DNA of 64,000 nt, taken from assembly GCA_015056365.1 (NCBI GenBank), contig SVGM01000007.1, positions 1 to 64,000 of the forward strand, given 5' to 3'. This document shows positions 10,225 to 53,813 of this stretch, in pieces. This stretch comes from Clostridiales bacterium. Its GTDB lineage: Bacteria > Bacillota > Clostridia > Christensenellales > Aristaeellaceae. The first letter of the stretch is position 1; every line of letters begins with the position of its first letter. The notes under the pieces are model-generated. The model was not told the DNA's origin, made no database searches, and saw nothing but the letters and a program-made list of their open reading frames with translations. The translations under genes and the position numbers were made by a program.

Positions 10225-10517
10225 ACCACCCTTGCCAGCCGGTAGCGGTCCAGCGCAGCCTTCAGGTCACCGGGTAGGCTGTCCACCCCAATGGTGACGC
10301 CGCCTTCGCTGTGGCTGCTTTCGCCCTGCATGCCCAGGCGGGCGTAATGCATGGCTGCCAGTTCCACCACCACCCCGAACAGATTCGCCGGCACTTGCAT
10401 GCGACCGGTGTAGGCCATCACGTACTGCTCCGCGTCTGTCAAAAGATCGGTCAGCAGCGCATCCTGGCTGTCGTCAGTCGTTGCCAGCCTTCGCTTCAGC
10501 ACTTCCAGATGGTTCAT
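10221..10517 (-). CDS. gp6-like head-tail connector protein
   Basis: This 98-residue all-helical protein fits the gp6-like connector family: 'LLTDLLTDAEQYVMAYTGR' followed by 'VVELAAMHYARLGMQGESS' and 'GDLKAALDRYRLARVV'. Such proteins form a 12- or 13-fold ring below the portal. It starts at 10517 with an AAGGAGGTGG ribosome site that lies within a small overlapping gene, and overlaps the adaptor gene by four bases. Confidence 0.8.
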   Translation of the reverse strand: MNHLEVLKRRLATTDDSQDALLTDLLTDAEQYVMAYTGRMQVPANLFGVVVELAAMHYARLGMQGESSHSEGGVTIGVDSLPGDLKAALDRYRLARVV

Positions 10518-10608
10518 GGGCCGCCACCTCCTTCTTTCTGCCTCCGCGGGGCTTTCGCGCCGCAGGCTTGCTGCGCTTGGGAATCACCCTGCCGATGATC
10601 CTGCTCAT
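10474..10608 (-). CDS. Small basic phage protein (44 aa)
   Basis: A 44-codon frame starts at 10608, nine bases after an AAGGAG site that sits just past the capsid stop, and ends at 10474 inside the connector gene in another frame. The product is very basic in its first 26 residues (IPKRSKPAARKP then RGGRKK) and acidic/neutral after. The RGG-R-K run resembles AT-hook or nucleic-acid-binding tails. Short Lys-rich proteins are often found between capsid and connector genes in Firmicute phages. The function is unknown, and the overlap with the connector gene lowers confidence. Confidence 0.45.
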   Translation of the reverse strand: MSRIIGRVIPKRSKPAARKPRGGRKKEVAAHEPSGSAEAKAGND

Positions 10609-10613
10609 TGCGC

Positions 10614-11483
10614 TCACTCCTTGCAGTGCACGTACACGCCGGCGGTCTTATTCTCGTAGACCTGAGCGATGCTCACCTGACGGTAGCCGAACTTCCAGGC
10701 GTCGGCGTCAGGATTCATCTCAGGAGAGACCACCTTGGGGCTGATGTGCTTGGGGAACTGGATCACAGCGGCGCGATGGATCACCATGAAGTTGATCTCC
10801 TTGCCGTCGGCCGCCTTGGTATAGCCGCCCACGGTCTCGCCGCTGCTGGTGCCGTCGTTCTGCTGAATGGCGGTATAGAAGCGGGTCTGGGGCACGGCCA
10901 CCACCTGGCTGAAGCGGCTGAGCACCTCGCGGCTCTTCACCAGCTCCATATCCTGCAAAAGACCATGCAGGGTGGGCGTGATAAAGAGAATGCGATCCTC
11001 CATGGGCACCTCAGCCTCGTCCATGGCGTTGGTGGCGGCGCGCAGAGCGCTGACCACGCTTTCGCCGTCGGTGAGGGTCTCGCTGGCAAAGCCAACGCCC
11101 TCCGCGCCGGCATAGGTGGCAAATCGGAAGGCGTCCAGCTCAGGGGCCACCTTGGTGCGGATAAACTCGCCGGCCAGCATGCCAAAGGCAACGCCTGCGG
11201 TCTCCGCGTCGTCCATGCTGTCCACGGTGAACATACGGCCGCGGTCGAAATTGCACACCACGGTTTCATTGGTCAGGGTCACGTCGCCGCTGACATAGCC
11301 GCCGTTACGGCTGTAGTCGGCCAGACCGTCCATGGTCATCTTGGGGATGATCAGTTCGTTGGCGTTGGCGCCCACGCGGATCAATTCCGGGTTGCCGTCC
11401 AGCACGTCGGTTCGGCTGGCTTCCTTGTACACCTCGTCCAGAAGGGGTACATACTGTTCAAAAAGCGCAATACTGTTGGCCAT
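10614..11483 (-). CDS. Phage major capsid protein
   Basis: This 289-residue protein is the likely major capsid subunit. It starts with MANSIALFEQYVPLLDEVY, has a 'NELIIPKMTMDGLADYSRN' strand region, then 'DRILFITPTLHGLL' and 'INFMVIHRAAVIQFPKHI', which match coat proteins with the HK97 fold in clostridial prophages. It lies next to the scaffold gene and before the connectors. No prohead protease gene is present in the cluster, so maturation probably relies on scaffold release, as in SPP1 or P22. Confidence 0.85.
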   Translation of the reverse strand: MANSIALFEQYVPLLDEVYKEASRTDVLDGNPELIRVGANANELIIPKMTMDGLADYSRNGGYVSGDVTLTNETVVCNFDRGRMFTVDSMDDAETAGVAFGMLAGEFIRTKVAPELDAFRFATYAGAEGVGFASETLTDGESVVSALRAATNAMDEAEVPMEDRILFITPTLHGLLQDMELVKSREVLSRFSQVVAVPQTRFYTAIQQNDGTSSGETVGGYTKAADGKEINFMVIHRAAVIQFPKHISPKVVSPEMNPDADAWKFGYRQVSIAQVYENKTAGVYVHCKE

Positions 11484-11645
11484 TTTTCTTCATCCTTTCT
11501 TTCCTCACGGGCATCTGCCGCCCGTCTTTTTGATCGCGCAAGGCAGGCATTGGGCGCGGGGGATGCTGCCGCCGTCTGCAGGTTGCTCTCCTGCCAGGCC
11601 ACAAGCCTTCATGTTGCGGTCATCCCGGCGTCTTGGCCGCCCGCC

Positions 11646-12146
11646 TTACTTCAGCCCCAATGCGGAGCGCATCTGGGCGGTATAGGCCGCCTGAGCGGCG
11701 CCCTTGGGCGCGCTGCCCCTGAGGCGCTTTTCCACCGCCCGATCCACCTGCGCACGGAAGGCTTTCTCCACCTGCGCAAGGCTGGTCTCCGCCGCCAGCG
11801 GATCGTCATAGCGCAGGCAGTCTGCCAGTTCCACCGGCAGCCCGCGCTGGCTGAGCTGGCTGAGCGCCTCGGCGCGAAGCTCTCTGCGCACAAGCGCCGC
11901 TTCCCGTCCCTCCAGAGCGGCTTCCCGCTCCGCGTCCCGGATCAAGGCCGCCTGTTGGATCTCTGCATCCCTCTCCCGCTCCCACTTGCCCCGGGCCGTG
12001 GCCAGCGAACGGCTGACCATCCGGTCAAACTGCCGCTGCAATTCTCCGTCCTCCCGGAGCAGCTGCTTCAGGCGCTCGTTTTCTTTGCCACCTTCCGGCG
12101 TCTCCAGCGTCTGGGTACCTTCCTGCATGGTGTTTTCCTTCTCCAT
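11646..12146 (-). CDS. Phage capsid scaffolding protein
   Basis: This 166-residue protein is highly charged and helical, rich in E, R, Q and A throughout (NERLKQLLREDGELQRQ, then REAALEGREAALVRRE), with a basic C-terminus (VEKRLRGSAPKG). Scaffolding proteins of the DUF4355 type have this composition and lie directly before the capsid gene. The ATG at 12146 is preceded by AAGGAGG at close spacing. An in-frame ATG at 12209 has no such site and was not used. About 160 bases without a gene separate it from the capsid gene. Confidence 0.75.
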   Translation of the reverse strand: MEKENTMQEGTQTLETPEGGKENERLKQLLREDGELQRQFDRMVSRSLATARGKWERERDAEIQQAALIRDAEREAALEGREAALVRRELRAEALSQLSQRGLPVELADCLRYDDPLAAETSLAQVEKAFRAQVDRAVEKRLRGSAPKGAAQAAYTAQMRSALGLK

Positions 12147-12234
12147 GGTTCCTCCTTGCCCGCAGCGTTCACAGCCGCTGCGTTCCTTCATGTAGATATG
12201 AAAAAACACGGCTCGGCGCGTTGCCGTCCCGTGT

Positions 12235-13539
12235 TTATTCCGTCTTTTCGCCCTGTGCCGTCAGGGCTTCGTAGGCCGCCGCTGCGTCCTCCACAAAGGG
12301 CACCTGGGACAGAAGCGTCTCTGTGGGCACCAGGCCGCGGTATGCCTGAATCGTCTGTGCCACCTCCAGCCGGTTCACCGGCAGGCTGCGGCTGAAGAAC
12401 ACCTCCACCTGATCCGCCTTGGGCACATCCATGCCCCGCAGGCTGAGGAAGTGCAAAAGACAGGTAAGCCGCCACAGAAGCCCCTCCCGGAACCAGCGTT
12501 CCTTCACCCGGGTCAGTTGTTCCAGACCAAAGAGCTTGTACTCCATGGCCACGCCGCTCACATTGCCGCCAAAGGCCTCGTCTGTCATGTCCGGTACGAA
12601 GCTCAGCTTGTGGATGTCAGCACGAAGGCTGTTTTTCAGAATCTCCGTATCGCTTTCACTCAGCGTCTTGGTCAGGTACTCCACCCTTGCGTCCGCTGCA
12701 GGCATCTCCAGTGTGCGCGTTTCCCGAAGGCGCTGCTGCAGGCTCTGGCCGCTTTCGTCCTCCTCCACCGTGGCGCCATAGATGACCATCAGTGCGTCGG
12801 TGAACTGCTGCTTGTCGTTGACCCGATCGCTCTGCAGGGCGTCATAGGCGTCGATCAGATTCATCACGCCCTCAAAATCGCCTCTCTCCCGGGCATTGTT
12901 CCAGTACTCGCACATGGGAACGTGCCCAAAGAAGTGGCGCTGACGGCTGACTTCGCTGGGCAGACCGTTGCCGCTGCGCTCCAGATGGATCACCCATTCG
13001 TCGGTCATCACGTCCACCTGCTGGCACACCTTTTCAAAGCGGGCGTTCAGCTTGTCGCTGATCAGCACGCCAAACAGCGGCGCATGCTCTACCGTGGTGT
13101 CGTACACCACAAAGGCGTTGCGCGCATCGGCCTGGCACAGCCGGGGCATGGCGTCCCCGTCAGCGTAGTACACCTCCACGCCCTTGCCGTAGATCGCCGC
13201 ATCCGCAGCCAGCTCGCAGTCCACATTGGCGCTGGCACAGCGCCTGAGCACCTGGCTGAGCACGCTGAGGTCGCTGCCGTCCACGCTCTGGTACTGCACC
13301 GGCTCGCCCACCAGATAGCCGCTGGTCAGCGCAACGATGTAGCCCGGCAGGTCATGCCACAGCCGGTGATTGGGCGCACCCTTCATGCGCATACGCCCGC
13401 TGACGGCGTGACGGCCGTCGTAATACGTCCGGAGCGCCTCCAGCCTGGCCCGTTCCTGACCGAAGCGCCGCAGCACCTCCCCCAGCAATTCCGGCGACGG
13501 CTCGCCGTCCACCAGCCAATCCCTGTCCACCTGAATCAT
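12235..13539 (-). CDS. Phage portal protein (SPP1 gp6 family)
   Basis: This 434-residue protein is the portal through which DNA enters the capsid. It shows the SPP1-type signatures 'LRTYYDGRHAVSGR' near residue 40, 'DLPGYIVALTSGYLVGEPV' around 65-85 and 'GVAMEYKLFGLEQLT' near 345. The start at 13539 overlaps the terminase stop (TGATG) behind a GGAGGG site. An upstream in-frame extension to 13977 lies wholly inside the terminase gene and is not used. No MuF-like minor capsid gene follows, which is unusual for this family. Confidence 0.85.
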   Translation of the reverse strand: MIQVDRDWLVDGEPSPELLGEVLRRFGQERARLEALRTYYDGRHAVSGRMRMKGAPNHRLWHDLPGYIVALTSGYLVGEPVQYQSVDGSDLSVLSQVLRRCASANVDCELAADAAIYGKGVEVYYADGDAMPRLCQADARNAFVVYDTTVEHAPLFGVLISDKLNARFEKVCQQVDVMTDEWVIHLERSGNGLPSEVSRQRHFFGHVPMCEYWNNARERGDFEGVMNLIDAYDALQSDRVNDKQQFTDALMVIYGATVEEDESGQSLQQRLRETRTLEMPAADARVEYLTKTLSESDTEILKNSLRADIHKLSFVPDMTDEAFGGNVSGVAMEYKLFGLEQLTRVKERWFREGLLWRLTCLLHFLSLRGMDVPKADQVEVFFSRSLPVNRLEVAQTIQAYRGLVPTETLLSQVPFVEDAAAAYEALTAQGEKTE

Positions 13540-14789
13540 CAATGAAACCCTCCTTTTTTCAGTTTGACCACCTGCTGGTTCATCACCGCCTCCATGGCGT
13601 AACGCACCGCATCGATGGTATGGTTGTCCCTGTCGGGGCATTCGGCGACGAAAACCCCGTTTCTGTCCCGCTGGTACTCGTAGAGCGAAAACTCCCTTGC
13701 CGCCACCGGGCACCGTGCGCCGTCGATGACGATGGCCGTCCGCTCGCGCAGCCAGCGGATGCCATGTTCCACGCTGCCTGCGCCTTTTTTCACGCCCAGC
13801 GCGTTCACGCCCAGCCGGCGGAGTTCCGCGATCTCCCTTGGCGCGGCGCTGTCGCAGCGCACCAGCGCATCTCCTGCCAGCTCCCGGCATTTCTCCGCCA
13901 AAAGGTGCAGGCTCTGCCCGGTGCGCACGTATTCGCCCACGATATACAGCGTGCGCGTCCGTGCCTGGTAGCTGCACTCCACCAAAGCGTCCGGGTCCGC
14001 AGCAAAGCCAAAGTCCAGCCCGAATCGGCGCACCGGCAGGCCATCCAATTCCTCCTGAGGAACCTCCCGCACCGTCACATTGCCGAACACCTGACCCCCG
14101 GTGCCCACCGCCTCGCCCAGATACATATGCCGGTACGCCCGCTCGTTCTGCTCCTTCAGCTGCTCGGCCAGCATCAGGAACCCCTCCCCCAGCCAGCTTT
14201 CGGGCAGCATCCGGTAGTCGCTTTTGTGATACAGCCGCCCCTCCACAGCCCGGAGCGCCTCCGCATTGATCCAGTTTTGCGCGTGGATCGGCGGGTTGTA
14301 GCTCACCAGCGTAATACCTCTACCTCCGCGCAGCACGCTGGCCTGAATGGTCCTGAGCTCCTCCATGCCGTGAAAGGCGCTGGCCTCCTCAAACCATAGC
14401 GCAGCGAAATACCCCTGCTCGGTTTTCAGGCCCTTGCTTTTCTCCGGGTCGTCCGCGCCGCGGAAGAGGATCCGCTGCCCGGTAGGCCGGTAAACCATCT
14501 CCAGAGGGCTGAGCCTGCAGGTAAAGTAGCTTTCCAGCCCCAGTTGCTGCGCCGCCCAGCGCATCTGGGCATAGACGCTCTCCCGCAGGCTGTCCGCCAC
14601 CTTCCGATACACCGCCACATTGGCCTTTGGGTCGCTGAGCATCAGGCATATCAGCGCGATGCTCACAAAGCTGCTCTTGCCGCTGCCGCGGCCGCCCATG
14701 AGCCAGTACTCCCGGTGCCTGCGCTGGTACACGTCCCAGAACAGCGGGTGATAGGCTTTTGCCAGCAGCCCGCTGAGGCGGATGTTCAC
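13539..14789 (-). CDS. Terminase large subunit (PBSX-like)
   Basis: This 416-residue protein is the packaging motor and nuclease. The ATPase domain has Walker A GGRGSGKSS (residues 32-40), Walker B LWFEEA near 132, and the coupling motif 'TLVSYNPP'. The nuclease domain shows DFGFAADPDALV near 250 and the closing acidic 'NHTIDAVRYAMEAV' near 395. The length is normal for the family. It overlaps the small upstream gene by four bases and the portal by one. All catalytic motifs appear intact, so the motor is probably functional. Confidence 0.92.
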   Translation of the reverse strand: MNIRLSGLLAKAYHPLFWDVYQRRHREYWLMGGRGSGKSSFVSIALICLMLSDPKANVAVYRKVADSLRESVYAQMRWAAQQLGLESYFTCRLSPLEMVYRPTGQRILFRGADDPEKSKGLKTEQGYFAALWFEEASAFHGMEELRTIQASVLRGGRGITLVSYNPPIHAQNWINAEALRAVEGRLYHKSDYRMLPESWLGEGFLMLAEQLKEQNERAYRHMYLGEAVGTGGQVFGNVTVREVPQEELDGLPVRRFGLDFGFAADPDALVECSYQARTRTLYIVGEYVRTGQSLHLLAEKCRELAGDALVRCDSAAPREIAELRRLGVNALGVKKGAGSVEHGIRWLRERTAIVIDGARCPVAAREFSLYEYQRDRNGVFVAECPDRDNHTIDAVRYAMEAVMNQQVVKLKKGGFH

Positions 14790-14995
14790 GCGCCGTCCCT
14801 CCTGTCCAGATCCACCACGATGCTGGGCGCTGTCTCCGGCGCGCCCGTCTGTTCACCAAACAGCCCGTAGCGCTTTCCCAGCAGCTCCGCTGCCCGGAGC
14901 ACCTCTGAGGGCTTAACCTCCTCCTCCCGGCGCAGGATGCTGGTCAACGCCTGCAGCACCTCCTCCGCCTGCGCCACCTTGCTCTGCCGTGCCAT
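14786..14995 (-). CDS. Truncated terminase small subunit-like protein
   Basis: This 69-residue protein starts at 14995 (AAGGGG and GATGAGG site) and ends coupled to the terminase gene by ATGA. Its centre 'KPSEVLRAAELLGKRYGLF' resembles the C-terminal part of phage small terminases ('KALELLGKHLGMF' type), but the N-terminal helix-turn-helix DNA-binding region is absent. A start at 15073 would add 26 residues, but it lies before the predicted transcription start and lacks a ribosome site. It may be a minimal small subunit, or a remnant that cannot recognise a pac site. Confidence 0.6.
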   Translation of the reverse strand: MARQSKVAQAEEVLQALTSILRREEEVKPSEVLRAAELLGKRYGLFGEQTGAPETAPSIVVDLDRRDGA

Positions 14996-42083: not shown

Positions 42084-43115
42084 ATGCAGACGTATGACCG
42101 TTTTTGCTCATCTGCCAAGCGCATCGTTGCGCTGGTGATGGCGCTGGTTTGCCTCGCCCCCCTTGCAGCCTTTGCGGCTGAAGACCTGACCCCGCTGTTT
42201 CAGGAGCGCCTGGAAGCCCTCCAGACCCCTGCTGAAGAAGGCATCGCCACCGGTCTGTACACCCTGCGCACCGGCGACAGCGCCTATATGCCCCATGTGT
42301 CCCCCGGCGTGATCCCCTTCGACCAGCAGGAGGAGACCCCCGTCCCTGCCCCCCAGGGCGTTTTCTCCTCGGATGACGAAAGCATCGTTACCGTCACTGC
42401 CAACGGCATGATGACCGGCGTCAGCGCCGGCGAAACCGTGGTGCGCTGGCTCTCTCCCGAAGGGGAAAAGACCGTCACCGTCACCGTGGCCGACGACGCC
42501 ATCACCGAGATCGCCAAGAACTATGTCTACGTGCTCAACCGGGAGTATTACTCCGTTGCCCGTGCCAAGCTGCCCAAGTACAACCAGTACGCCAAGTGGT
42601 ACTACCGCAAAAAGAAAGAGGTCGGCTGGTGCTCGGTATTCACCATCTTCTGCGCCAACGCCGCCGGTTTTGATCCAATCGAAGAGAAAACCCTGGATCC
42701 GGAAGCCGGCTACACCTCCCTGTTCCTCCGCGAAGGCCAGGTAGGCGACCAGTACGACGGCTTCAACAAGCTGGGCCGCTTTGTGGGCGTGCCAAAGCCC
42801 GGCTACCTGGTCATCTATGTGGACATGAAAAAAGCCTACCTGACCACCCACGTGGGCTCCGTGGTGGCCGTGGAGGATCGCGGCAACGGCATCTACGCCG
42901 TCACCACGGTGGAGGGCAACATGTCCAACTCCGTCAAGCGCTATACCTATCTCTACGACAGCAACTGCTCCAACCACGAGATCACCACCGACACCCGCAA
43001 GCACCTTCAGGACAACATGGCCACCCTGCCCGAGGCGGAGCATACCGATCCCCTGGCACAGTACGAGCTGCATACCGATCACTGGTCGGTCTTCGGTTTC
43101 TGCGCTACGTGGTAA
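42084..43115 (+). CDS. Secreted CHAP-like protein with Ig-like domain
   Basis: This 343-residue protein has a signal peptide (residues about 10-32, ending AAFAAEDL). Residues 90-137 look like a bacterial Ig-like (Big2) domain: 'SSDDESIVTVTANGMMTGVS' then 'GEKTVTVTV'. The C-terminal half has a cysteine-histidine pattern of CHAP/NlpC-type peptidases: 'EVGWCSVFTIFCANAAG' with the likely catalytic Cys, and 'TTHVGSVVAVED' with the His, then 'AVTTVEGN'. It may act on peptidoglycan at the surface. It has its own promoter. Confidence 0.75.
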   Translation: MQTYDRFCSSAKRIVALVMALVCLAPLAAFAAEDLTPLFQERLEALQTPAEEGIATGLYTLRTGDSAYMPHVSPGVIPFDQQEETPVPAPQGVFSSDDESIVTVTANGMMTGVSAGETVVRWLSPEGEKTVTVTVADDAITEIAKNYVYVLNREYYSVARAKLPKYNQYAKWYYRKKKEVGWCSVFTIFCANAAGFDPIEEKTLDPEAGYTSLFLREGQVGDQYDGFNKLGRFVGVPKPGYLVIYVDMKKAYLTTHVGSVVAVEDRGNGIYAVTTVEGNMSNSVKRYTYLYDSNCSNHEITTDTRKHLQDNMATLPEAEHTDPLAQYELHTDHWSVFGFCATW

Positions 43116-43202
43116 TTCCCTGATGAACCTTTTGCTGCACGGGTATGCTATCCATGCAGCATGATATTCTCGCTACCAACACCAAAAAAGGAGGAATACC
43201 CC

Positions 43203-43745
43203 ATGAAACCCATCAAAGGCACCAAGACCGAAGCAAACCTGATGACCGCATTCGCCGGCGAAAGCCAGGCCCGCAACAAGTACACCTACTATGCCTCCAA
43301 GGCCCGCAAGGAAGGCTACGTACAGATCGCCAACCTGTTCGAAGAAACCGCCAACAACGAAAAAGAGCACGCCAAGATCTGGTTCAAGCTGCTCCATGAC
43401 GGCGAAGTGCCCACCACGGAAGTGAACCTGCTGGATGCTGCCGAGGGCGAAAACTACGAGTGGACCGATATGTATGCCGGCATGGCCAAGGACGCCCGCG
43501 AGGAAGGCTTCACCGAGATCGCCATCCTCTTTGAAAAGGTCGCCGCCATCGAAAAGCGCCACGAGGAACGCTACCGCAAGCTGCTGGCCAACGTGCAGGG
43601 CGGTTTGGTGTTCAGCCGCGATGGCGATATGATCTGGGAATGCGCCAACTGTGGCCACATCGTCGTGGGCAAGAAGGCCCCCGAGCTGTGCCCCGTTTGC
43701 AAGCACCCCAAGGCCTACTTCATGATCATGGCCGAAAACTACTGA
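43203..43745 (+). CDS. rbr: Rubrerythrin
   Basis: This 180-residue protein is a non-heme iron peroxidase that protects anaerobes from hydrogen peroxide. The four-helix di-iron part has E-x-x-x-x-Y/E-x-x-H elements: '[16 protein letters not shown]', '[14 protein letters not shown]' and '[17 protein letters not shown]'. The C-terminal rubredoxin part has 'CANCGH' and 'CPVCKHPK' for the FeS4 centre. The ATG at 43203 follows AAAGGAGG. The upstream region has a GCTGCA/TGCAGC inverted repeat at about 43134-43160 that may be an operator, perhaps for a peroxide sensor. Confidence 0.95.
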
Positions 43746-43756: not shown

Positions 43757-43790
43757 TTCAGGCGAGCCGCTCACCGGCGGCTCGCCTGAA
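43757..43790 (+). terminator. Terminator after rubrerythrin
   Basis: A 13-bp stem (43757-43769 with 43778-43790, TTCAGGCGAGCCG arms) with an eight-base loop is followed by CCTGTTTTATTTT. It separates rubrerythrin from the glycosyltransferase operon. Confidence 0.8.
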
Positions 43791-43821: not shown

Positions 43822-45309
43822 ATGCGCATCGTTCACATCAACGTTACCGCCACCCTGTCCACAGGACGGATCGCCGCCGACCTGTGCCGTCATGCCATGG
43901 CTCAGGGGCATGAAACGCTCTTGTGCTACGGCCGCGGCAGCGCGCCGAAGGACATCCCCACCCTGCGCGTAGGCGAGGTGACCCGGGAGCTGGACTACAA
44001 CAAGCTGCTGCGCAAAAACTTCCGCAACCCCCATCGCCGTATGGACGTCCAGACTGCCCTGACCCGGCGCACCCTCTGGGATAAGCTGCGCTCCCGGAGC
44101 ATTGATCTGGGCGTCAATATTCACGCCGGCCTGAGCCGCATCACCGACCGTTCCGGCTTTTACAGCAGCCGCTCCACCCGCCGCTTGATCCGCGAATTGG
44201 AGAAATTCAAACCCGACCTGATTCATCTGCATAATCTTCACGGCTATTATCTTCATCTGCCCACCCTGTTCCGCTACCTGCGGGACAGCGGCATTCCCGT
44301 GGTATGGACCCTTCACGACACCTGGGCCTATACCGGCCACTGCGCCTACTACCACTTCCCGGTGGAGCCCTTCCTGCGAAAAGATCTCGACCAGCAGGAA
44401 GATAACTACGACGATTACGAGGACGAAGCCGCCGCACCTGCGCCCGTCAGCTGCCAGCTGTGGAAAAGCGGCTGCCACCACTGTCCTCTGAAAGATACCT
44501 ATCCCATCAGCTATGTGATGGACCAAAGCGCCCGCAACTACAAAGAAAAGCGCGCCCTGTTTACCGCCCTGCCCCTGATGGTGCTCACCACGCCCTCCCA
44601 GTGGCTGCGCAACGAAGTGCTCCAGTCCTATCTGGGCAAATACCGCATCTATGCCCTGCCCAACGGCATCAACCTCAACGACTTTTCCCCCTGCAGCGAT
44701 CCCCGCTTCATGCAGGACATCTCCATGTTCTACGGGCTGGACCGCATCGGCCAGCGCAAGCTGGTGATCAGCGTGGCTGCCGTATGGGACGATCGCAAGG
44801 GGCTGGATGACCTGATCATGCTGGCCGACGAGCTGGGCGACGAATACTGCGTCGCCGTGGTGGGTCTGGATCGCTATCAGGTGAACAACCTGCCCGGCCA
44901 TATGCTGGGCGTGGTCCGCACCAGCAACGTCCGCGAGCTCTGCGTCCTCTATACCGCCGCCGATCTGTGCATCAGCATGAGCCGGGGCGAGACCATGGGC
45001 ATGACGCTGGTGGAATCGCTGGCCTGCGGCACCCAGGTGCTCTGCTATGACAGCACCGCCATGCCGGAGATCGTCACCCCTCAGGTAGGCGAGACCGTCC
45101 CCGCCGGCGATATCAAGGCCGCCGCAGACGCGGTGCGCAGGCTGTGTGAGCATCCCAAGGAGCCGCTGCACTGCATCGCCCGCGCCGCCCAGTACGGCCG
45201 CAACCTGCGCTATGACGAATACATGAAGCTCTACCGCCTGATCGAGGAATACGCCATCACCCGTCAGGTGCAGAAGCATCGTCCTGCCGGCGCTGCCGAA
45301 AGCGTCTGA
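43822..45309 (+). CDS. Glycosyltransferase (GT4 family)
   Basis: This 495-residue cytoplasmic enzyme transfers a sugar from a nucleotide donor. The N-terminal GT-B half starts 'MRIVHINVTATLSTGRIAAD' and has 'DLIHLHNLHGYYLHLP' and 'VVWTLHDTWAYTGHCAYY', family marks of capsule/polysaccharide transferases. It includes a Cys cluster ('CQLWKSGCHHCP') often found there. The C-terminal half has 'ALPNGINLNDF' and the donor-site E-x7-E region 'SRGETMGMTLVESLACGTQV'. It is the first gene of the operon with the lipoprotein and the tubulin-like gene, 39 bases upstream, so it may modify a surface polymer linked to that system. Confidence 0.88.
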   Translation: MRIVHINVTATLSTGRIAADLCRHAMAQGHETLLCYGRGSAPKDIPTLRVGEVTRELDYNKLLRKNFRNPHRRMDVQTALTRRTLWDKLRSRSIDLGVNIHAGLSRITDRSGFYSSRSTRRLIRELEKFKPDLIHLHNLHGYYLHLPTLFRYLRDSGIPVVWTLHDTWAYTGHCAYYHFPVEPFLRKDLDQQEDNYDDYEDEAAAPAPVSCQLWKSGCHHCPLKDTYPISYVMDQSARNYKEKRALFTALPLMVLTTPSQWLRNEVLQSYLGKYRIYALPNGINLNDFSPCSDPRFMQDISMFYGLDRIGQRKLVISVAAVWDDRKGLDDLIMLADELGDEYCVAVVGLDRYQVNNLPGHMLGVVRTSNVRELCVLYTAADLCISMSRGETMGMTLVESLACGTQVLCYDSTAMPEIVTPQVGETVPAGDIKAAADAVRRLCEHPKEPLHCIARAAQYGRNLRYDEYMKLYRLIEEYAITRQVQKHRPAGAAESV

Positions 45310-45348: not shown

Positions 45349-47397
45349 ATGCAGCCAATCAAACGTCTCCGATTCTTCCTGTGCCTGCTGGTCCTCCTGT
45401 GCCTGTGTGGCTGCTCGCTGCTTCCCCCTGCCCAGCCTTCCGGCCGCCTGCCGGATCTTCGCCAACTGTCCATGCCCGCCTTTGAAGAAACCATCTTCTC
45501 CTCCGCAGGTGAAGGCGGACAAAACGCACCCCTGCAGGTGGATCTGTGGCTGGACGCCTCCCAGGTGATGGGCGGCATCAACCCGGTCCAGGACAGCCTG
45601 TACCCCCATAAGGGCGTCAAATACCGGGAGGGCGGCTTCCACTATCGCTATGAAAACCAGGTAGGCTGGTATGAAAACCTGCTGCGGGATATGCTCAGCG
45701 CCGCCGAAGGCTCCCGCGTGCGCATCCTGCGCGCCGGCAACGAGCGCATCTCTGACCAGCTGCTGCTTTCCTCCGGCCTTGCCGCCTCCGATGATCCCGC
45801 CCTGCTGCGTTCGCTGCGCCGGGATCTGCTCACCTATGCGATCGATCCCATGCCCACGGTCTTTACCGCCTTTTCCGGGGAGAGCATGCAGGACAGCTTT
45901 TATTCCCCCTTCTCACCTCAGATGAACCGCATAGCGCAGTTTGCCCAGGACGGCGGCGTCCTGCTGGAAAACCCGGGCAAGACCGACGAAATGGACGCTC
46001 TGCTCACCAGCGTGGTAGCCTCTTACAATCCCAAAAAGCCCGAAGAGACCCTCCCCCTGCTGCTGACCGACCGCAACAATCCCCTGACCTATGCCCTGGA
46101 CAATCTGGATCCCTCACGCCTTTCGGTGATCACCTGCGACCCGGCCACGTTCCGCCGTCTCAGCACCACCGCTGCAGATGGCTCCACCATCGCCTTCATC
46201 CAGGAAGCGGTTGAAGAAAGGGGCATCTTTGACAAGGGGCTGGCAGTGGGTCTGTACGCTTTTCAGCTGGATTATTTGGGCCAGATGACCGCCATCACTG
46301 ACGCCGATCTTTCCCAGCCCCTCATCTGGGGCCGGATGGACTACAATCAAAGCAAAAACAAGCTCATGGGTGTTTTGCCCATGCCCCGCATCCTGCTGAC
46401 GCTGGTGGTGGGCTCGCCTGCGCATGTGACCGCCTTCACCGGCGCCCTCAACGCCGCCCTTGATACAGACAGCGCCCTGCGGGGGCTCCGCGGCCCGGAA
46501 AAGGGGCAGCTCACCTACTCCAAAGACGGCCAGACCGTCACCCAGCAGCCCTTCTCCTTCGCCTACGAATATACCTTGCTTCGCCGCCACGCGGTGGAAC
46601 CCTACACCCTGCGTTCCCCCGGCATGACCATGACCCTGAGCGAAGGAGTCCTGCTGGAGGATACCGCGCTGCCCACCGTTGCCCTGCCCTATGAGGAAGG
46701 CGCTTCCGGCCAGCGGGAGATCACCGTCTCCTGGCCGTTGGAGCAGCTGGAGGGCGGCCTAAGCCTTGATCCTGCTCAACTTTCCTCCCTGAAGGCCGAG
46801 GGGATTGCCTCCCTTGTGCTGACCAGAACCGAGCCCAACCTGCCCACCGCCCTTCCAGAGCCCGGCGTGCAGACGCTGACCCTTCGGGATACGCTGTATC
46901 ACTTCGCCTATACCCAGGAGAACGTTTCCCTGCCCTGCACCGCCAAATCCCTGCGCATCAGCGATGACGGCTCCACGCTGCTGGCGTCCTTCACCCTCGA
47001 CAACAGCCAGCTCAAGCCCGGCTACTACCGTCTGCGCCTCACCGCGGATATCGCCGGTGACCAGCTTACCTGGCCCCAGGTGGAATGGGTCTCCCGGCTC
47101 AACGCCACCATCACCAACGAGCAGATTTCCTCCTGGCAGCTGATCGCGGACGCCCTCAGCCTGAACCACCGCAAAGGCGGCAACATCCCCAACCGCTTCA
47201 CCCACGCCTGGGGCGAGGACTCCGGCTCCACCTACCGGGATGTGCTCATCCCCGACTGTCCGCCGGTTTATGCCGCGCCGCGCCTTCTGGAGCTGTTCAC
47301 CCAGCTTCAGTCCGCCGCCGAAACCGAGTCCACTCCCTTTATCTGTTGTGAACTGGATCTGTTTGTCGCTCCGGCAGAGCAAATTGCCGGTCTGTAA
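45349..47397 (+). CDS. Lipoprotein of the tubulin-like operon
   Basis: This 682-residue protein has a lipoprotein signal with lipobox LCGC (lipid Cys at residue 22) and should sit on the outer face of the membrane. I do not recognise a family for the rest. Near residue 68 'VDLWLDASQVMGG' resembles a von Willebrand A metal site (D-x-S-x-S) with the second Ser changed, and 'LPLLLTDRNN' follows at a spacing that could be the matching later strand. The C-terminal 250 residues look beta-rich. It precedes the four-helix membrane protein by 18 bases and probably forms the external part of that machine. Confidence 0.7.
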   Translation: MQPIKRLRFFLCLLVLLCLCGCSLLPPAQPSGRLPDLRQLSMPAFEETIFSSAGEGGQNAPLQVDLWLDASQVMGGINPVQDSLYPHKGVKYREGGFHYRYENQVGWYENLLRDMLSAAEGSRVRILRAGNERISDQLLLSSGLAASDDPALLRSLRRDLLTYAIDPMPTVFTAFSGESMQDSFYSPFSPQMNRIAQFAQDGGVLLENPGKTDEMDALLTSVVASYNPKKPEETLPLLLTDRNNPLTYALDNLDPSRLSVITCDPATFRRLSTTAADGSTIAFIQEAVEERGIFDKGLAVGLYAFQLDYLGQMTAITDADLSQPLIWGRMDYNQSKNKLMGVLPMPRILLTLVVGSPAHVTAFTGALNAALDTDSALRGLRGPEKGQLTYSKDGQTVTQQPFSFAYEYTLLRRHAVEPYTLRSPGMTMTLSEGVLLEDTALPTVALPYEEGASGQREITVSWPLEQLEGGLSLDPAQLSSLKAEGIASLVLTRTEPNLPTALPEPGVQTLTLRDTLYHFAYTQENVSLPCTAKSLRISDDGSTLLASFTLDNSQLKPGYYRLRLTADIAGDQLTWPQVEWVSRLNATITNEQISSWQLIADALSLNHRKGGNIPNRFTHAWGEDSGSTYRDVLIPDCPPVYAAPRLLELFTQLQSAAETESTPFICCELDLFVAPAEQIAGL

Positions 47398-47415
47398 GGA
47401 AAGGAGGCAAGCGCC

Positions 47416-48057
47416 ATGACCCCCGCCCCTGTGAAAATCAAAAAGCGGCTCCGCCTGCGTGCCTCCAACCGTTTCAAGGTGCTTCTGTGCTACCTGATCT
47501 GTTTTTCCCTGCCGCTTTTGTGGCAATGGGCCGGGCTCTGGCTGGTGTACCCCTACAAGCTGGCCTTCTCCGCCCCCACCATTGCCGATACCCTCGCCCA
47601 GCTCCTGCCTGCGCCGCCTGCCGCGCTGCTGGAGGCCGCCAGCGCCGCGGCCGACCCCCTTGCCGGAGGGCATCAGGTCTGGTCCCAGGCGCTGCAGATC
47701 CGCGATCTGCACTGGCAGCGCTTCGTACTGGTCTGCTTCGGCATCGCCTTCCTTGCCACCCTTGTTCTCCAGCTGCTCTGGCGTATCCTCCACGGCCGCG
47801 CCATCAACGCAGCCAAGCAGGCGCGCCGCGCCAAACGAAACTACCGCCTGACCCAGCTGGGCATCTGGCTGCTCAATGCCGCTGTCGCCTACGGCTTGTG
47901 GTATCTGGGCGTCAGCAAGATCACCGGACGCACCCTGTGGGATCTGCTGGTCTACTTCCCGCCCTATGTGCTCAATGCGCTGGCGGCTCTTCTCTGCTTC
48001 CGGTTGGCGGCCCCCCCGGTCATCAGCGGCAAGCACGGATTTTTCAAGCGCCTCTAA
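47416..48057 (+). CDS. Four-helix membrane protein of the tubulin-like operon
   Basis: This 213-residue protein has about four membrane helices (near 22-48, 103-125, 146-166 and 178-202). A basic N-terminus (KIKKRLRLRASNRFK) and a basic loop (NAAKQARRAKRNYR) set both on the cytoplasmic side, with a roughly 55-residue loop outside after the first helix. I know no matching family. It lies between the lipoprotein and the tubulin-like gene (18 bases either side) and could link the outside lipoprotein to the cytoplasmic filament-type proteins. Confidence 0.7.
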   Translation: MTPAPVKIKKRLRLRASNRFKVLLCYLICFSLPLLWQWAGLWLVYPYKLAFSAPTIADTLAQLLPAPPAALLEAASAAADPLAGGHQVWSQALQIRDLHWQRFVLVCFGIAFLATLVLQLLWRILHGRAINAAKQARRAKRNYRLTQLGIWLLNAAVAYGLWYLGVSKITGRTLWDLLVYFPPYVLNALAALLCFRLAAPPVISGKHGFFKRL

Positions 48058-48075
48058 GGGCGGAAAGGAGTGCCT

Positions 48076-50172
48076 ATGGGCTGCTATGTTCTGGCCATCG
48101 GCGGTACAGGCAACAAGATTTTAGAAAGCATCGTCTATGCTGCCGCTGCCGACGCCTTTTACACCATCTCGCCAAACGGAAAGCGTACGCCTGTGCGTGA
48201 GCTGCATCTTTTGTCCGTGGACGTGGACGCCGCCTGCGGCAACACCACCCGCGCCAGCCGCGCCGCCGAATACTACGAGCAGGTGCGCGCCGCCTTTGAC
48301 GAAACCAGACAGACCCGTCGGGGGTTCCGTACCCGGCTGGATCTTCGCCGCTGGAACATGAACCTGAGCCGCCGTGCCACCTCTGTCAGCCGCATGACGG
48401 AGAACCATGCCCGCGATCAGCTGCTCTCCCGCACCCTGTTCAGCAAGACCGAAGCCTCCCTGGAATACAGCGAGGGCTTCCGTGGCCATCCTGATCTGGG
48501 TGTCTTGTTCTTCTCCGATCTCCTGTCCTCCCTGGATCAGCTCCGCGCCATGGGTCAGCCTGACGAAATGAATGCCCTGCTGGATCAGATGGATGCGGAT
48601 ATCAGCCGGGGCGAGACCGTCAAGGTCATGCTCTGCGGCAGCATCTTTGGCGGCACCGGCGCCAGCGGCATCCCTGCGCTGGCGCGGTATCTGCACGAGC
48701 GCTTCCGCGACCGCCTTTCCCTGTTTGAGATGGGCTCCATGCTTATGCTGCCCTACTATAAAGTGCCGCCGTCCTCCCACAACGAGGAACTGGAGATCGT
48801 GGTCAAAAGCGCGGACTTCCCAGACAAGGCGCGCACCGCGCTGCAATACTACGGCATGTCCGGCATGATCCGCAGCAGCGAGGAGGATACCGACGGCGTA
48901 TTCGACGCCATCTATATGCTGGGTCTGCCCCCCGAAGCCTTTGTCCAGACCCGCATCTACTCCACCGGCTCCCAGAGTCAGGAGAACGACGCCCATATGC
49001 TGGAGTGGCTGGCCACCCGCTGCATCGCCGCCTTCCTGCGCACCGGCATGCGGGGTGCCAATGCCCACAACATGGACTGCTACTACTATCAGTGGCACAC
49101 TCCCTCCTTCTGCTGGCAGAGCTTTGACAGCGAAGGCGAACTGTACCGTGTGGGCTACGGCGGCCTGCTGAAGGCATCGGCGTTGTTCTTTGCCGAATGC
49201 TATCCCAGCCTGCGCAAGCTGGTCACCGGCAGCGGCCGGGGTGGCAGCGCCATCGGCTATTGCGCCCCCTATTTCTCCGACATCCACCATATGAACGCCC
49301 TCCAGCGCGATCAGTTGGAAAAGCTGCTGGATGCGCTATACCATTTCTTTGCATTCTATGCCAACTGGATGGTGCAGCTCACCCGCACCATCCCCCCCAC
49401 CATGCGCCCCAAGCAGCAGCAGGAGCTTCGTCTGGATGAGGCCTCCCATGTCTATCAGCTGCTGATCCAGCGCCGCGCCCAGCTGAAAATGAACGGCGAA
49501 GGCACCCCCGGCTACGATACCCTGGTCAACGACCGCATGGACGCCCAGTCCCAGTGCGATATCCTGCTGCCCCAGATCGGCGGCGAGGCATGGCTTGAGA
49601 TGCTTTTCAGCGCGCGTCACAGCGCCCAGGAGCAGCTCCGCCATCAGGAAACGCTGGTGGCCGATCAGGAGGAACTTCTGCATCGCATCACCCATCAGGA
49701 GCGCCAGATGACCTCCCCCGAGGAGGTACGCCGCCAGCAGGAAAAGCTTGCCTCCCTGCGCCTGATCCGGGATGAATACGCTCTGCGTCTCCACCTGATG
49801 GAGGAAGACATCCGTTCCGCCGTCCGCGCCGACCTGCCGGGCCATTATCCTGCCCCTGCCGCTGTCCGTCACGGGGACGTTCCGGAAAACGACCTGCTCA
49901 GCGCCTCCGTCCTCAGCGCCCTGTATACCCTCCTGCGCCAGTACGGTACGGGCGCGGAGGAGCGCGACCCAGACGCCATGAGCCGCAGCAGCCTGAACAT
50001 CCAAAGATCCCTGCACAAGCTGATCCTCAGCGCCGTGCCGGATCGCCGCACCACCGCCTATGCCATTGCTGCGCTGGGCGGCGGTCGCTGTGCCCATCAG
50101 ACCCCCGGCGGCGTGATCGCATCCTTTACGGCTACGCTGCTGGCCGCTGTCATGGAGGACTCCGCCCTATGA
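48076..50172 (+). CDS. Tubulin/FtsZ-superfamily protein
   Basis: This 698-residue protein has the nucleotide-binding marks of the FtsZ/tubulin fold: 'YVLAIGGTGNKILESIVY' at residues 4-21 (phosphate loop T1), 'LHLLSVDVDA' at 43-52 (as FtsZ 'NTDAQ') and the tubulin signature 'CGSIFGGTGASGIPALARYL' at 187-206. The middle is mixed; residues about 510-590 are coiled coil (E/Q/R-rich). It is longer than FtsZ (about 350-400) and nearer to the bacterial tubulin-like (Tubulin_2) group. The ATG at 48076 has AAGGAG at good spacing; a GTG at 48070 is the alternative. It overlaps the next gene by ATGA, so the two are coupled. Confidence 0.78.
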   Translation: MGCYVLAIGGTGNKILESIVYAAAADAFYTISPNGKRTPVRELHLLSVDVDAACGNTTRASRAAEYYEQVRAAFDETRQTRRGFRTRLDLRRWNMNLSRRATSVSRMTENHARDQLLSRTLFSKTEASLEYSEGFRGHPDLGVLFFSDLLSSLDQLRAMGQPDEMNALLDQMDADISRGETVKVMLCGSIFGGTGASGIPALARYLHERFRDRLSLFEMGSMLMLPYYKVPPSSHNEELEIVVKSADFPDKARTALQYYGMSGMIRSSEEDTDGVFDAIYMLGLPPEAFVQTRIYSTGSQSQENDAHMLEWLATRCIAAFLRTGMRGANAHNMDCYYYQWHTPSFCWQSFDSEGELYRVGYGGLLKASALFFAECYPSLRKLVTGSGRGGSAIGYCAPYFSDIHHMNALQRDQLEKLLDALYHFFAFYANWMVQLTRTIPPTMRPKQQQELRLDEASHVYQLLIQRRAQLKMNGEGTPGYDTLVNDRMDAQSQCDILLPQIGGEAWLEMLFSARHSAQEQLRHQETLVADQEELLHRITHQERQMTSPEEVRRQQEKLASLRLIRDEYALRLHLMEEDIRSAVRADLPGHYPAPAAVRHGDVPENDLLSASVLSALYTLLRQYGTGAEERDPDAMSRSSLNIQRSLHKLILSAVPDRRTTAYAIAALGGGRCAHQTPGGVIASFTATLLAAVMEDSAL

Positions 50173-53100
50173 AACAAAAGAAACGCCTGCATTCCCCTCT
50201 GCTCAATGAAGACCAGACCAAACGGGCGCTGGATAAAAGCACGTCCTATACCACGCTGCTGCCCCATATGGACGAGGGCTTCCACATGGGCTACCGTCCC
50301 ATTCCCGGCATCCTGACCGACGGCAGCCAGAAGCCACACGAATGGCTGGAGAGCATGGCCAAGAACATGCAAACCCCCGGCCGGGACGTGGGCTTTGCCA
50401 TCCCGGACGTGCTGGCCTCGGAGCAGCAGCTCCGCCGCCTGAGCCGCATGCCCGCCGAGCTGGCGCTGCGCCATCAGCAGATGATCGACTTCCGCGCCCT
50501 GCTGTCCCTTTTGCTCATCTGGGATCAGCTTCAGCAGGTCCCGGGCTGCCCTGTCCTTACCGTGGAGAAGATGGACGCGGCAAGCGGATCCTTTGCCGCC
50601 ATGGTGCTGGGTGCACTGCCGGTACAGCGTGCCCGCGAAGGGCTGTACCTGGTCACCCTCACCCCTGAAAACAATGAAAAGCATACCCGCTATCCCCTGT
50701 GCCTTCTGTCCAATCAGACGATCCTGACCCCAGCCGCCGACCCGGAGGATCTCAGCCAGGTGCTTCCTCCTGCGATCCGCTGGTACGACCGTCAACGCAA
50801 GCGCTTTCTGGATCCCTGCGCCTATCTGGACGAAAGCCAGCTGGCGCTTCTGTTGCCCCGGCTTCGCCTGCTGATGACCCTTTGCGAGGATGCTTCTCTT
50901 CAAAGTCCCCTGTACAGCCCATCGGCGCAGCTGTGCGCCCCCCTTGGCCGCTTTGTGGACGAACTGCTCTCCACCCGCCAGCCCTGGCGGGATAAGCTGC
51001 TGGCAGGCGATCCCGAAGCTGTGTTCCAGCTGCGCACAAGAGTGCAGGCTGTCTATGGCCTGATGCTGCGCTCCCCGGACACCTCCCGCATCGCCGCCGT
51101 CAGCCTGACCCAGGATGATACCGACCCCGCCAAGAACCCCCTGCTCCGCGCATTCCTGCCCACCTCCTGCGACCTGCCCCGCCTGCTCCAGCCCCAGACC
51201 TTCTATACCCTGGACGGCGTTCCCTTTGCCCGCATGAGCGGCGTATGCTTGTTGGAGCCCACCGGCGCAGAGGGCGAAAGCGACGCCCTTGCCAGGATCG
51301 CCGAGGAATGCAAGCTGCTGGACCGCTACGATCCTGACTGGCGCGCCCATATGGCCCAGACCCTTGCCCGGCTTGACGAGAAGCTCAGCGGCCGCACCGG
51401 CCTGATGCCCGAAGTGCCCCGTCTTTTGATGACCTGGCAGCAGGAATATGCCAGCGCATCTGTGCCTGCCCGTCAGGAAGTCACCCTGACCTATCCAGAG
51501 GACAGCCAGCGTATCGCTGCCCAGTCACTTTTGTCCCGCACCCTGGGCATCGACGATCCTCAGGCGCTCACCCAGCCCATGTCGGACTGCCTTATGCTCA
51601 TCGAGGGCGCAAGCCGTTCTCCCTTTGCCGATCTGGTGATGACCACCTCCTGCGCCATTTCCTTGGGAACGGATCAGCCGCCCCTGTATTTCCTGCCCCC
51701 TATCTCCCCAGCGCTATGCGCCTGTCTGATGAACCGGGACAATCCTGCCCTGCTGCTGCCCGAGTCCCTTTCCGCTGTTCTGAGCGAGGATCGGCAAAGT
51801 GTGGACGTCTCCTTCCGGGTGACGCGCCATCTGCCTGAGGACGGTACCCAGACCGTGGTCACCTTCCGCCGCTCCTACCGTCTCAGCGACGTGCCGGAAG
51901 CCGACGCTGCTTTCCGTATGCCGGCAGCCCAGCTGCCCATGGTCACCGTGTGGCCCAATGTACGCCTTGAAGGCGAAGGCTGGCGGCAATACTACCTCCA
52001 TACCCACAACCCCGGCGAGCTGACCCCTCTTGCCATGACGGACGAAGGCTGGCAAGCCGGTCAGGAACGCACCGCTCCCGGCGGCCTGACAGGTACCGGC
52101 CAGCCCAGACGATGGCAGATCCTGCAGACCAGCCAGTTCCCAGGCTATGTACCCCTCCGCCTTGGTAAGCTGAGCGTGGGCGCGCTGCCCAACCTCTCCG
52201 CCGCGCGCCGGATCCGCCGGGAAGCCCCCGCCGCCGTGGGTCTTGATTTCGGCAGCATCTCCACCACGGTGATGCTCCGCCAGGGCGAAAAGATCCAGCC
52301 GGCTACCCTGCCCAAGGGGCTCCACGCTACCCTGCTGCGGCCTGACCCGGTGGCACCCGCTGTGCTGGAAAACGAGCTCATTCCCCCCGAAGCGCTCCGC
52401 AGCGGCGCCCAGCGGGAATCCACCTTCTACAGCGTCATGGATCTGTTCAGCGACGATCCTGAAAAGTGGCTGCGGCCTCTGGTGGACGGCCATATCTACT
52501 ATCCTGCCCAGCTCAGCACCCTTCAGGACAAGAACGAAGGCACCCTGTACTACGACCTGAAATGGAACGAGGAATCCTATGTAATGGCCTGCCTGCGCCT
52601 GTTCCTCAAGCAGGTGATGATGCAGGCGTCCCTCTCTGCCCGGCTGCACGGTTCGCCTTCCCTGAGCTGGCGCGTATCCACCCCCAATGCCATGCCCCCG
52701 CACCGTCAGGAGGGCTACCTGAACCTGATGCGCGGTCTTGCCCGGGAGGTTGCGCAGGAAACCGGCGTTCCCCTGACCCAGGGCACTCCCTCGGTGCTCT
52801 ACGCCAGCGAAAATCAGGCCGGTGGTCTGTATTTCCGCAGCCGTAACGAAGTCAGCGCCGCCGGCGGATATCTGAACCTGGATATCGGCGGCGGCACGGC
52901 GGACCTGAGCCTGTGGCTGGGCGGCGCCGGCAGCGCCACTGCCGAATGCTCCCTGCTGATGGGCTGCCGCCAGATGCTCTTTACCTCCTTCAGTAACGGC
53001 CACATCGACGATTTTGAGGCAGATTATGCCTTTGCCGACCCTGAGGTCAGGCAGGCGGCTGCCAGCCTCGCCTCTGCCATGCGCGCCGGTCTCAGCGCCA

Positions 53101-53813
53101 CCCGCGCTCAGCAAAAGTGTATGCTGCTCATGGACGACTTCTTTGCCGCCTACCCTGAGCAGATCCGACAGGGGCTTGAAAATCACCGCAATCAAGGCAG
53201 CCTTGCTTATACGGAATGCCTGCTTCTGTTTGGTCTGGGCTTCCTGTTCCACCTGTGCGGCGTACTTCTGCACCGGGCCAGTCTGGATCCAGAGCTGCGG
53301 CCCATGCTCCCTGCCCGGATGGAGCTTTGCATCGCGGGCAACGGCGGCCAGTTCCTCAACACCCTCACCCAGGAGCAGCGGGAGCGTCTGTGCCAGCTGG
53401 CGCTGAGTGCTCTGGGCGCCGATCACCCCCTGCGCGCCCTGATGCCTGTTCAGAGCCGCGACCCCAAGCTGGAAGTGGCCACCGGCCTGCTCAGCAACGA
53501 CGGCATGCTGCTGAGTACCCTTCGCAGCGTCAATCGCTGGAACGGCACCTTCCAGCAGGTGCGTCTGGAGGATCGTCCCAACCTGACCAAAAACTATCTG
53601 CTTCTGTTCATCCAGACCTTCCCCCAGGCAGCCGAACGCCTGCTGGGCGGGCTGTATCATCACAAGACCCAGGACGGCAAGCCCGCCCTAATGCCCAGCG
53701 CGGAGATGGAGCTTGCCACCATTTACGAAAACGAGCTGCACCAATGCGCCGACGACGACCTGACCGCCGCCGTCAACTGCTTCCATGCCCTCAAGCGCAT
53801 GTGGGAAATCTGA
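50169..53813 (+). CDS. Giant Hsp70/actin-like ATPase protein
   Basis: This 1214-residue protein has an actin/Hsp70-type ATPase in its C-terminal half. Phosphate loop 1 is 'VGLDFGSISTTVMLRQG' near 690, phosphate loop 2 is 'LNLDIGGGTADLSLWLGG' near 904 and the adenosine motif is 'CIAGNGGQFLNTL' near 1055. The N-terminal 650 residues are unlike known chaperones, with mixed helix and strand and no membrane segment. No Hsp70 substrate domain follows. It starts inside the end of the tubulin-like gene (ATGA). It probably uses ATP to control assembly of the neighbouring tubulin-like protein or the membrane complex. Confidence 0.78.
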   Translation: MKQKKRLHSPLLNEDQTKRALDKSTSYTTLLPHMDEGFHMGYRPIPGILTDGSQKPHEWLESMAKNMQTPGRDVGFAIPDVLASEQQLRRLSRMPAELALRHQQMIDFRALLSLLLIWDQLQQVPGCPVLTVEKMDAASGSFAAMVLGALPVQRAREGLYLVTLTPENNEKHTRYPLCLLSNQTILTPAADPEDLSQVLPPAIRWYDRQRKRFLDPCAYLDESQLALLLPRLRLLMTLCEDASLQSPLYSPSAQLCAPLGRFVDELLSTRQPWRDKLLAGDPEAVFQLRTRVQAVYGLMLRSPDTSRIAAVSLTQDDTDPAKNPLLRAFLPTSCDLPRLLQPQTFYTLDGVPFARMSGVCLLEPTGAEGESDALARIAEECKLLDRYDPDWRAHMAQTLARLDEKLSGRTGLMPEVPRLLMTWQQEYASASVPARQEVTLTYPEDSQRIAAQSLLSRTLGIDDPQALTQPMSDCLMLIEGASRSPFADLVMTTSCAISLGTDQPPLYFLPPISPALCACLMNRDNPALLLPESLSAVLSEDRQSVDVSFRVTRHLPEDGTQTVVTFRRSYRLSDVPEADAAFRMPAAQLPMVTVWPNVRLEGEGWRQYYLHTHNPGELTPLAMTDEGWQAGQERTAPGGLTGTGQPRRWQILQTSQFPGYVPLRLGKLSVGALPNLSAARRIRREAPAAVGLDFGSISTTVMLRQGEKIQPATLPKGLHATLLRPDPVAPAVLENELIPPEALRSGAQRESTFYSVMDLFSDDPEKWLRPLVDGHIYYPAQLSTLQDKNEGTLYYDLKWNEESYVMACLRLFLKQVMMQASLSARLHGSPSLSWRVSTPNAMPPHRQEGYLNLMRGLAREVAQETGVPLTQGTPSVLYASENQAGGLYFRSRNEVSAAGGYLNLDIGGGTADLSLWLGGAGSATAECSLLMGCRQMLFTSFSNGHIDDFEADYAFADPEVRQAAASLASAMRAGLSATRAQQKCMLLMDDFFAAYPEQIRQGLENHRNQGSLAYTECLLLFGLGFLFHLCGVLLHRASLDPELRPMLPARMELCIAGNGGQFLNTLTQEQRERLCQLALSALGADHPLRALMPVQSRDPKLEVATGLLSNDGMLLSTLRSVNRWNGTFQQVRLEDRPNLTKNYLLLFIQTFPQAAERLLGGLYHHKTQDGKPALMPSAEMELATIYENELHQCADDDLTAAVNCFHALKRMWEI

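Follow-up and report, generated by a model that had tools for sequence, protein, structure and literature searches.

A cassette of four genes, which joins a tubulin-like and an actin-like protein to a lipoprotein and a membrane protein, was found in a 64,000-nt stretch of DNA from a Clostridiales bacterium (contig SVGM01000007.1, positions 1 to 64,000; hereafter the window). We propose, with a probability of about 0.5, that this cassette is a membrane-tethered nucleotide switch or scaffold of the FtsZ/FtsA kind, working outside cell division and coupled to a sensor-like lipoprotein. Since the tubulin-actin pair occurs also in bacteria that are only very distantly related, and in some relatives as one fused protein, the cassette has the appearance of an as yet unstudied machine of the cell envelope in gut bacteria. 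The observations behind the proposal are the gene order, the protein families, their conservation and the fusion of two of the genes. The four ORFs, named LPP, TM, TUB and ACT here, are as follows.

LPP, 45349-47397, + strand: lipoprotein of 682 aa, first ORF of the cassette.
TM, 47416-48057, + strand: polytopic membrane protein of 213 aa, with 3 helices by hydropathy, perhaps 4.
TUB, 48076-50172, + strand: divergent protein of 698 aa, placed in the Tubulin_2/FtsZl1 family by sequence.
ACT, 50169-53813, + strand: protein of 1214 aa, with about 680 N-terminal residues without recognised fold and a C-terminal ATPase-like domain assigned to the actin superfamily by sequence.

The tight spacing of the ORFs, reported in a first-pass annotation made from the sequence alone, was reproduced: the distances LPP/TM/TUB/ACT were 18, 18, and -4 bases, the last being an ATGA overlap of TUB and ACT. 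G-rich stretches resembling ribosome-binding sites were present upstream of the cassette ORFs.

Searching the bacterial family of the window with TUB gave matches in 39 of 200 genomes, the window's own included. In 38 of these 39, found by TUB alone, ACT was beside TUB or fused to it, in G107 with the N-terminal half of ACT only; the exception (G067) was at a contig edge. At the order level, ACT was detected in 20 of 396 genomes and TUB in 13 of 297, all 13 being among the ACT genomes, and at the phylum level ACT was detected in 2 of 398 (the window's own and G809). From 58 tabulated loci, in which the relatives' genes were called with our own script, 5 duplicates (L033, L034, L035, L037, and L038) were removed, leaving 53. 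TUB and ACT were both held by 50 of the 53, and the linkage expected across genomes was found in every one of the 50: in 43 the two genes were neighbours on the same strand, 18 of these having the 4-base overlap, and in 7 they were one ORF. L060 and L111 are cut off by contig edges; in L107 neither protein was called, although profile hits show both in one frame. LPP was present in 29 of the 53 loci, and LPP, TM, and TUB followed each other in order in 27 of the 29, the TM family sitting conserved between LPP and TUB; in L075 and L125 the membrane gene in the place of TM had no match to the family TM profile. The linkage is more than chance, as the order is conserved over many genomes. Nine loci, in two groups, had a fifth gene after ACT, whose product has one or two membrane helices, a coiled coil, and a small C-terminal domain; this gene was not found in the window. 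In another locus, a gene downstream of the cassette (L108:2402-6511) encodes a protein of 1369 aa that combines Sel1 repeats with an NPCBM domain; an M14 carboxypeptidase-like gene comes next.

Co-occurrence across Clostridia, as the first-pass annotation had envisaged, was seen, but the genes are not confined there. When 72,556 plasmids were searched with ACT by tblastn, five records were obtained, all cyanobacterial. An LPP-like gene, a gene for a membrane protein of 156-170 aa, TUB, and ACT stood in a row in three plasmid records; on the Gloeothece plasmid, LPP was on the opposite strand. The LPP profile, applied to 26 cyanobacterial proteins, recovered two LPPs (2.2e-13 and 9.1e-6), so that LPP is profile-confirmed in two of the three records; the LPP of the third, annotated short, did not match it. 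The Gloeothece TUB also matched Prevotella sp. oral taxon 299, in which TUB (5.3e-46) adjoins ACT (1.6e-30). Ahead of this pair come, in cassette order, genes for a lipoprotein-like protein and a small membrane protein, neither of which had a profile match; the former, which matched none of the LPP profiles at E 0.1, was assigned from its place, signal, and motif only. Likewise without a match to the family TM profiles, the TM genes of Prevotella, L075, and the cyanobacteria were assigned by place and size; a cyanobacterial TM profile matched the TM of L125 (5.2e-12). As a test independent of the seeds, a profile was made from eight LPPs, none of them of the window's type, and it matched the window LPP at 1.2e-6. 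The final family-profile E-values were computed in a small protein set of our own that contained the profile members themselves. ACT had no match among phages by tblastn, and none of 27 pattern matches in a scan of IMG/VR was a relative. Somewhat more tentatively than the proposal above, TUB and ACT may form an ancient tubulin-actin couple not serving division, an obligate complex in at least three bacterial phyla, with a lipoprotein-membrane relay (by profile in two phyla) and fused in one genus.

Profile searches placed TUB in the tubulin/FtsZ superfamily, as had been predicted, by matches to Tubulin_2 and PF00091. The window TUB matched Tubulin_2 (PF13809) at E 1.1e-4 with 22 bits, under the cut-off of 27. 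Among 20 aligned TUBs, 12 matched Tubulin_2 (best 2.1e-7) and 10 matched PF00091 (best 2.5e-5), and the Gloeothece homologue, with 40.8 bits, exceeded the Tubulin_2 cut-off. Five Tubulin_2 proteins from the phylum, including two that are 88% identical, were aligned by hhalign to a 12-TUB profile (E 4.5e-6, probability 86.5); the 175 aligned columns start at T1 and run beyond T4. By sequence, TUB is a divergent branch of the FtsZl1/Tubulin_2 family. In PDB, its C-terminal part matched coiled-coil proteins, though weakly (0.0071 at best). Two GTP-binding loops were recognised from the motif columns of the alignment.

T1 loop, TUB residues 9-12, + strand: GGTG.
T4 loop, TUB residues 192-195, + strand: GGTG.

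Among 29 full-cassette rows, the column supposed from the alignment to hold the T7 catalytic Asp carried D in only 5; in 17, including that of the window, it carried S. Hydrolysis in filaments of the classical FtsZ kind thus appears doubtful for TUBs of the window's clade, and because of this column a switch or scaffold is favoured over a treadmilling filament. The same column makes it unlikely that TUB polymerises like FtsZ or TubZ into filaments that deform the membrane, with ACT as a filament-binding adaptor. The kinship with Tubulin_2 and the membrane remodelling proposed for FtsZl1 (PMC2875224) would suit such a filament system; a fusion of TUB to ACT suits a simple filament less easily, and T6-H7 could not be identified in FtsZl1 according to the main text of that paper.

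FtsA-FtsZ is the textbook actin-tubulin pair of bacterial division. The cassette resembles it in having actin- and tubulin-superfamily genes side by side and a link to the membrane. It differs in that ACT is far larger than FtsA, the cassette has its own lipoprotein and membrane protein, and TUB is not aligned with the GTPase region of FtsZ: with the FtsZ proteins of these genomes, the TUB profile aligned over 23 C-terminal columns only (E 0.047). All seven genomes searched for it have a separate ftsZ, and in six of them, the window's genome included (G000:C18), an FtsA match adjoins this gene. TUB was therefore rejected as the division FtsZ, on the 23-column alignment, the genome's own ftsZ elsewhere, and the Ser of the window in the supposed T7 column. 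The PF14450 (FtsA) matches of G809 lay away from ftsZ, in frames of 350 and 356 aa, one of them MreB-like by sequence, and no FtsA was assigned in this genome for these reasons. At a distance of some 23 kb from its TUB, G809 also has a second PF00091 match (E 4.1e-37; G809:C1:1441383-1441868, in a 395-aa frame).

TubZ and ParM, a tubulin-like and an actin-like NTPase, are plasmid partition cytoskeletons. The cassette has both kinds of NTPase-like protein and some of its copies are plasmid-borne, but envelope proteins are in its operon, and of the three plasmids whose records were read, two have their own ParA genes.

In the main text of Makarova and Koonin (2010, PMC2875224), genes for VWA, kinase, GTPase, and OmpA proteins are described as linked to FtsZl1, for which a role in membrane remodelling is predicted. 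The cassette is like this FtsZl1/VWA system in that it links a protein of the Tubulin_2 family, which has both the T1 and the T4 loop, to secreted or membrane proteins, one of them possibly VWA-like; it is unlike it in having an actin-superfamily partner in every cassette locus not cut off. A term search of that main text gave no Hsp70, DnaK, or actin-like partner; the additional files list unnamed linked families, of which ACT may be one. Kinase, P-loop GTPase, and OmpA genes, which are frequent but not universal with FtsZl1, were not among the eight window proteins scanned. Five canonical Tubulin_2 loci showed no relative of ACT, a weak test in that the family TUB profile itself missed these Tubulin_2 proteins at E 1. 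These loci came from 5 of the 10 phylum genomes with an over-cut-off match, five of the six f66 genomes being left out; a phosphate-2-like pattern was in none of their genes and was present in the ACT of G809. Beside one canonical Tubulin_2 gene, a protein starting with a GLGGAG-type motif is encoded (L129:6910-8709), which may be another tubulin-like protein. In searches of an open-access library without bioRxiv, covering listings and the opening lines of abstracts, together with passages of PMC9871819 and PMC5898192, nothing bearing on this pair was found apart from the 2010 paper. The cassette, which the first-pass annotation had taken to be uncharacterised, is less unprecedented than it had appeared, with FtsA-FtsZ and the FtsZl1/VWA prediction (main text of PMC2875224) as precedents.

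ACT had been described as having an Hsp70/actin ATPase domain. The actin superfamily was supported by motifs and profile, with MreB as the best match and Hsp70 weaker. Three of the motifs in the window are the following.

Phosphate-1 motif, 52245-52268, + strand: ACT residues 693-700, beginning D-F-G-S.
Phosphate-2 motif, 52881-52904, + strand: ACT residues 905-912, D-I-G-G-G-T-A-D.
Adenosine-type glycine motif, 53334-53348, + strand: ACT residues 1056-1060.

In an alignment of 18 rows, the invariant or nearly invariant columns of ACT were, in order, D-F-G, a P, E-x-x-A, D-x-G-G-x-x-x-D, and G-x-G; we take D-F-G to be phosphate 1, E-x-x-A connect 1, D-x-G-G-x-x-x-D phosphate 2, and G-x-G adenosine. 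Of 20 proteins, 18 showed both phosphate patterns, and in these the spacing from phosphate 1 to phosphate 2 was 210-226 residues. The simple adenosine pattern was seen in 13 of these 18, and both of its glycines were invariant in the alignment. A profile of 18 ACT domains, searched against PDB, matched MreB best (7.6e-7), then an actin-family protein (4.6e-4) and Hsp70 chains (from 0.0022), and the best 60 of 93 matches were all actin-superfamily proteins by name. Ppx/GppA proteins are members of this superfamily. Judged from the ordered motifs and the MreB profile match, the C-terminal domain of ACT is of the actin superfamily. With MreB, Hsp70, and FtsA it shares the ordered phosphate-1, connect-1, phosphate-2, and adenosine motifs; unlike them, ACT has about 680 extra N-terminal residues and passes no Pfam family cut-off (window protein and 19 members). 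AlphaFold2 (AF2) gave low confidence over much of the actin-region domain and no usable model, and the fold search was weak.

The Hsp70 chains among the profile matches and the large extra domain would be in keeping with a role of ACT in folding or disassembling TUB, as a chaperone or remodeller of the Hsp70 kind, with the envelope genes as a client complex. This is improbable, considering that MreB was the best match, that none of 19 ACT members matched the HSP70 Pfam family at E 0.1, and that the ATPase domain of ACT is C-terminal, the reverse of the domain order in Hsp70.

The predicted lipoprotein character of LPP held at the family level. The window LPP has a hydrophobic N-terminal stretch, in which L-C-G-C is off the standard lipobox pattern; a signal is general in the family, and the standard pattern was found in 9 of the 11 homologues scored, the exceptions being the window and L075. 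TM, described earlier as a four-helix protein, is indeed a membrane protein; three clear helices were seen in the window by a crude hydropathy scan, a fourth being possible, and from 2 to 5 over the seven TMs scored. AF2 modelled the window LPP with pLDDT 68.8 and pTM 0.71, residues 70-104 and 309-346 being below 50. In this model the N-terminal domain (about 58-378) is alpha/beta with a VWA-like order of strands and helices, with a MIDAS-like D69-A-S after strand 1, and the C-terminal domain (about 413-682) is a beta sandwich, to which most matching rows of the fold search belonged. The strand-1 motif is D-G-S-G-S-M and D-A-S-G-S-M in two cyanobacterial LPP homologues and E-R-S-G-S-M in the Prevotella lipoprotein-like protein, all resembling the MIDAS of VWA domains. 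On this topology and motif, the N-terminal domain of LPP is possibly VWA-like; sequence profiles were unsupportive. Four versions of the LPP alignment, compared by hhalign with 14 VWA domains from these genomes, gave E-values of 0.41, 0.17, 0.059, and 0.014 over 16-31 columns only, the control comparison of TUB with the VWA domains giving 0.6. Pfam VWA was not matched by LPP sets of 15 and 10 members or by the two cyanobacterial homologues, and a PDB profile search of LPP did not support VWA. VWA identity of LPP by sequence was accordingly rejected.

Fusions of TUB to ACT were found in genus g26, where six loci (L101-L106) encode both in a single ORF of 1692-1756 aa; in G026, the two profile hits are in one open frame of 1774 aa. 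In a quick-search ACT tree of 50 rows with SH-aLRT supports, in which the long branches (L075, L111, L125, and others) are placed unsurely, 14 pairs and 6 fusions, all without LPP and TM, formed one clade (support 100), adjoining L052, which has the full cassette (support 94). Together, the six fusions of g26 made up a clade of their own (support 100). Left out of the tree was L053 (G107, 9137-11827), in which TUB is fused to the N-terminal half of ACT without an actin domain, a remnant or a separate form. The T4 loop was intact in only 4 of the 20 members of the reduced clade, as against 29 of the 29 TUBs beside LPP, and GTP binding therefore appears to track with the envelope partners. This gives modest support to GTP binding by TUB serving an envelope-coupled function, with a TUB-ACT body that would persist without LPP and TM; the support is modest because a single loss event is involved. 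The second phosphate-2 Asp of ACT was lost in 13 of the 14 reduced pairs. Joint decay of both nucleotide sites was rejected, as the six fusions keep all eight ACT motif columns and have lost the TUB loops. The Spearman coefficient between TUB and ACT nucleotide-site conservation was 0.43 over 49 rows, to which no weight is given because the rows are related. Upstream of the fused gene in four of the six g26 loci are nucleotidyltransferase-like and GalE-like genes, and eight reduced pairs (L055, L063, L064, L069, L070, and L072-L074) stand behind three conserved genes, sugar transferase-, nucleotidyltransferase-, and GalE-like, all of these names being read from sequence.

The complex of TUB with ACT, the direction of signalling, and the output are what we infer from these observations. 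From their adjacency and natural fusions, TUB and ACT would associate stoichiometrically in the cytoplasm, in a complex at the inner face of the membrane that is anchored by TM, which would relay to LPP. LPP would be extracytoplasmic and may bind a ligand through a metal-dependent, VWA-like domain. Through LPP as the sensor, the ligand or a state of the envelope would control the binding of GTP by TUB, and ACT, an ATPase by its motifs, would assemble, position, or reset TUB at the membrane. The output would probably be local remodelling of the envelope or membrane.

Polymer secretion or defence had also been suggested as roles, and no evidence for either was found. An accessory device for stress or phage defence, disturbing the membrane once triggered, would fit the patchy distribution (the family and phylum counts above) and the plasmid location of the cyanobacterial copies. 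This is about as improbable as the chaperone, if not slightly more so: none of the five window proteins run against PADLOC had a match at E 1, and of 10 relatives only 3 had matches, all weak (best 3.1e-4), the chromosomal neighbours are stable within the genus, and no toxin-like domain was seen in the scans made.

If the proposed switch or scaffold is real, the cassette would be a second conserved tubulin-actin pair besides FtsZ-FtsA, tied by a lipoprotein to the outside of the cell and fused in one lineage, and it would offer a new place to study the interplay of two cytoskeletal folds and the role of FtsZl1 proteins. Tests could draw on the genomes G163, G132, and G091, which have the fused form and consist of one or two contigs each, and on sequenced Picosynechococcus strains with the plasmid-borne pair.

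A glycosyltransferase gene, reported just upstream in the first-pass annotation, was confirmed in the window.

GT4 glycosyltransferase, 43822-45309, + strand: Pfam E 4e-16, outside the conserved cassette.

As a cassette neighbour, it was seen in the window's genus only (9 loci) and not elsewhere. A terminator-like stem of 15 pairs (43757-43790) lies ahead of it, LPP begins 39 bases after it, and a gene for an FAD protein (53834) starts 20 bases after ACT. From this stem and these short distances, the transcript may comprise six genes, namely GT4, the four genes of the cassette, and the FAD protein; GT4 is possibly co-transcribed in the window's genus. At 136-14995 of the window, a run of minus-strand ORFs resembles a prophage structural module, judged by order and sizes only. 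Upstream of GT4, at 42084-43745, a Big_2/CHAP protein and a rubrerythrin are encoded, which accompany GT4 in 6 and 8, respectively, of the 9 loci of the same genus.

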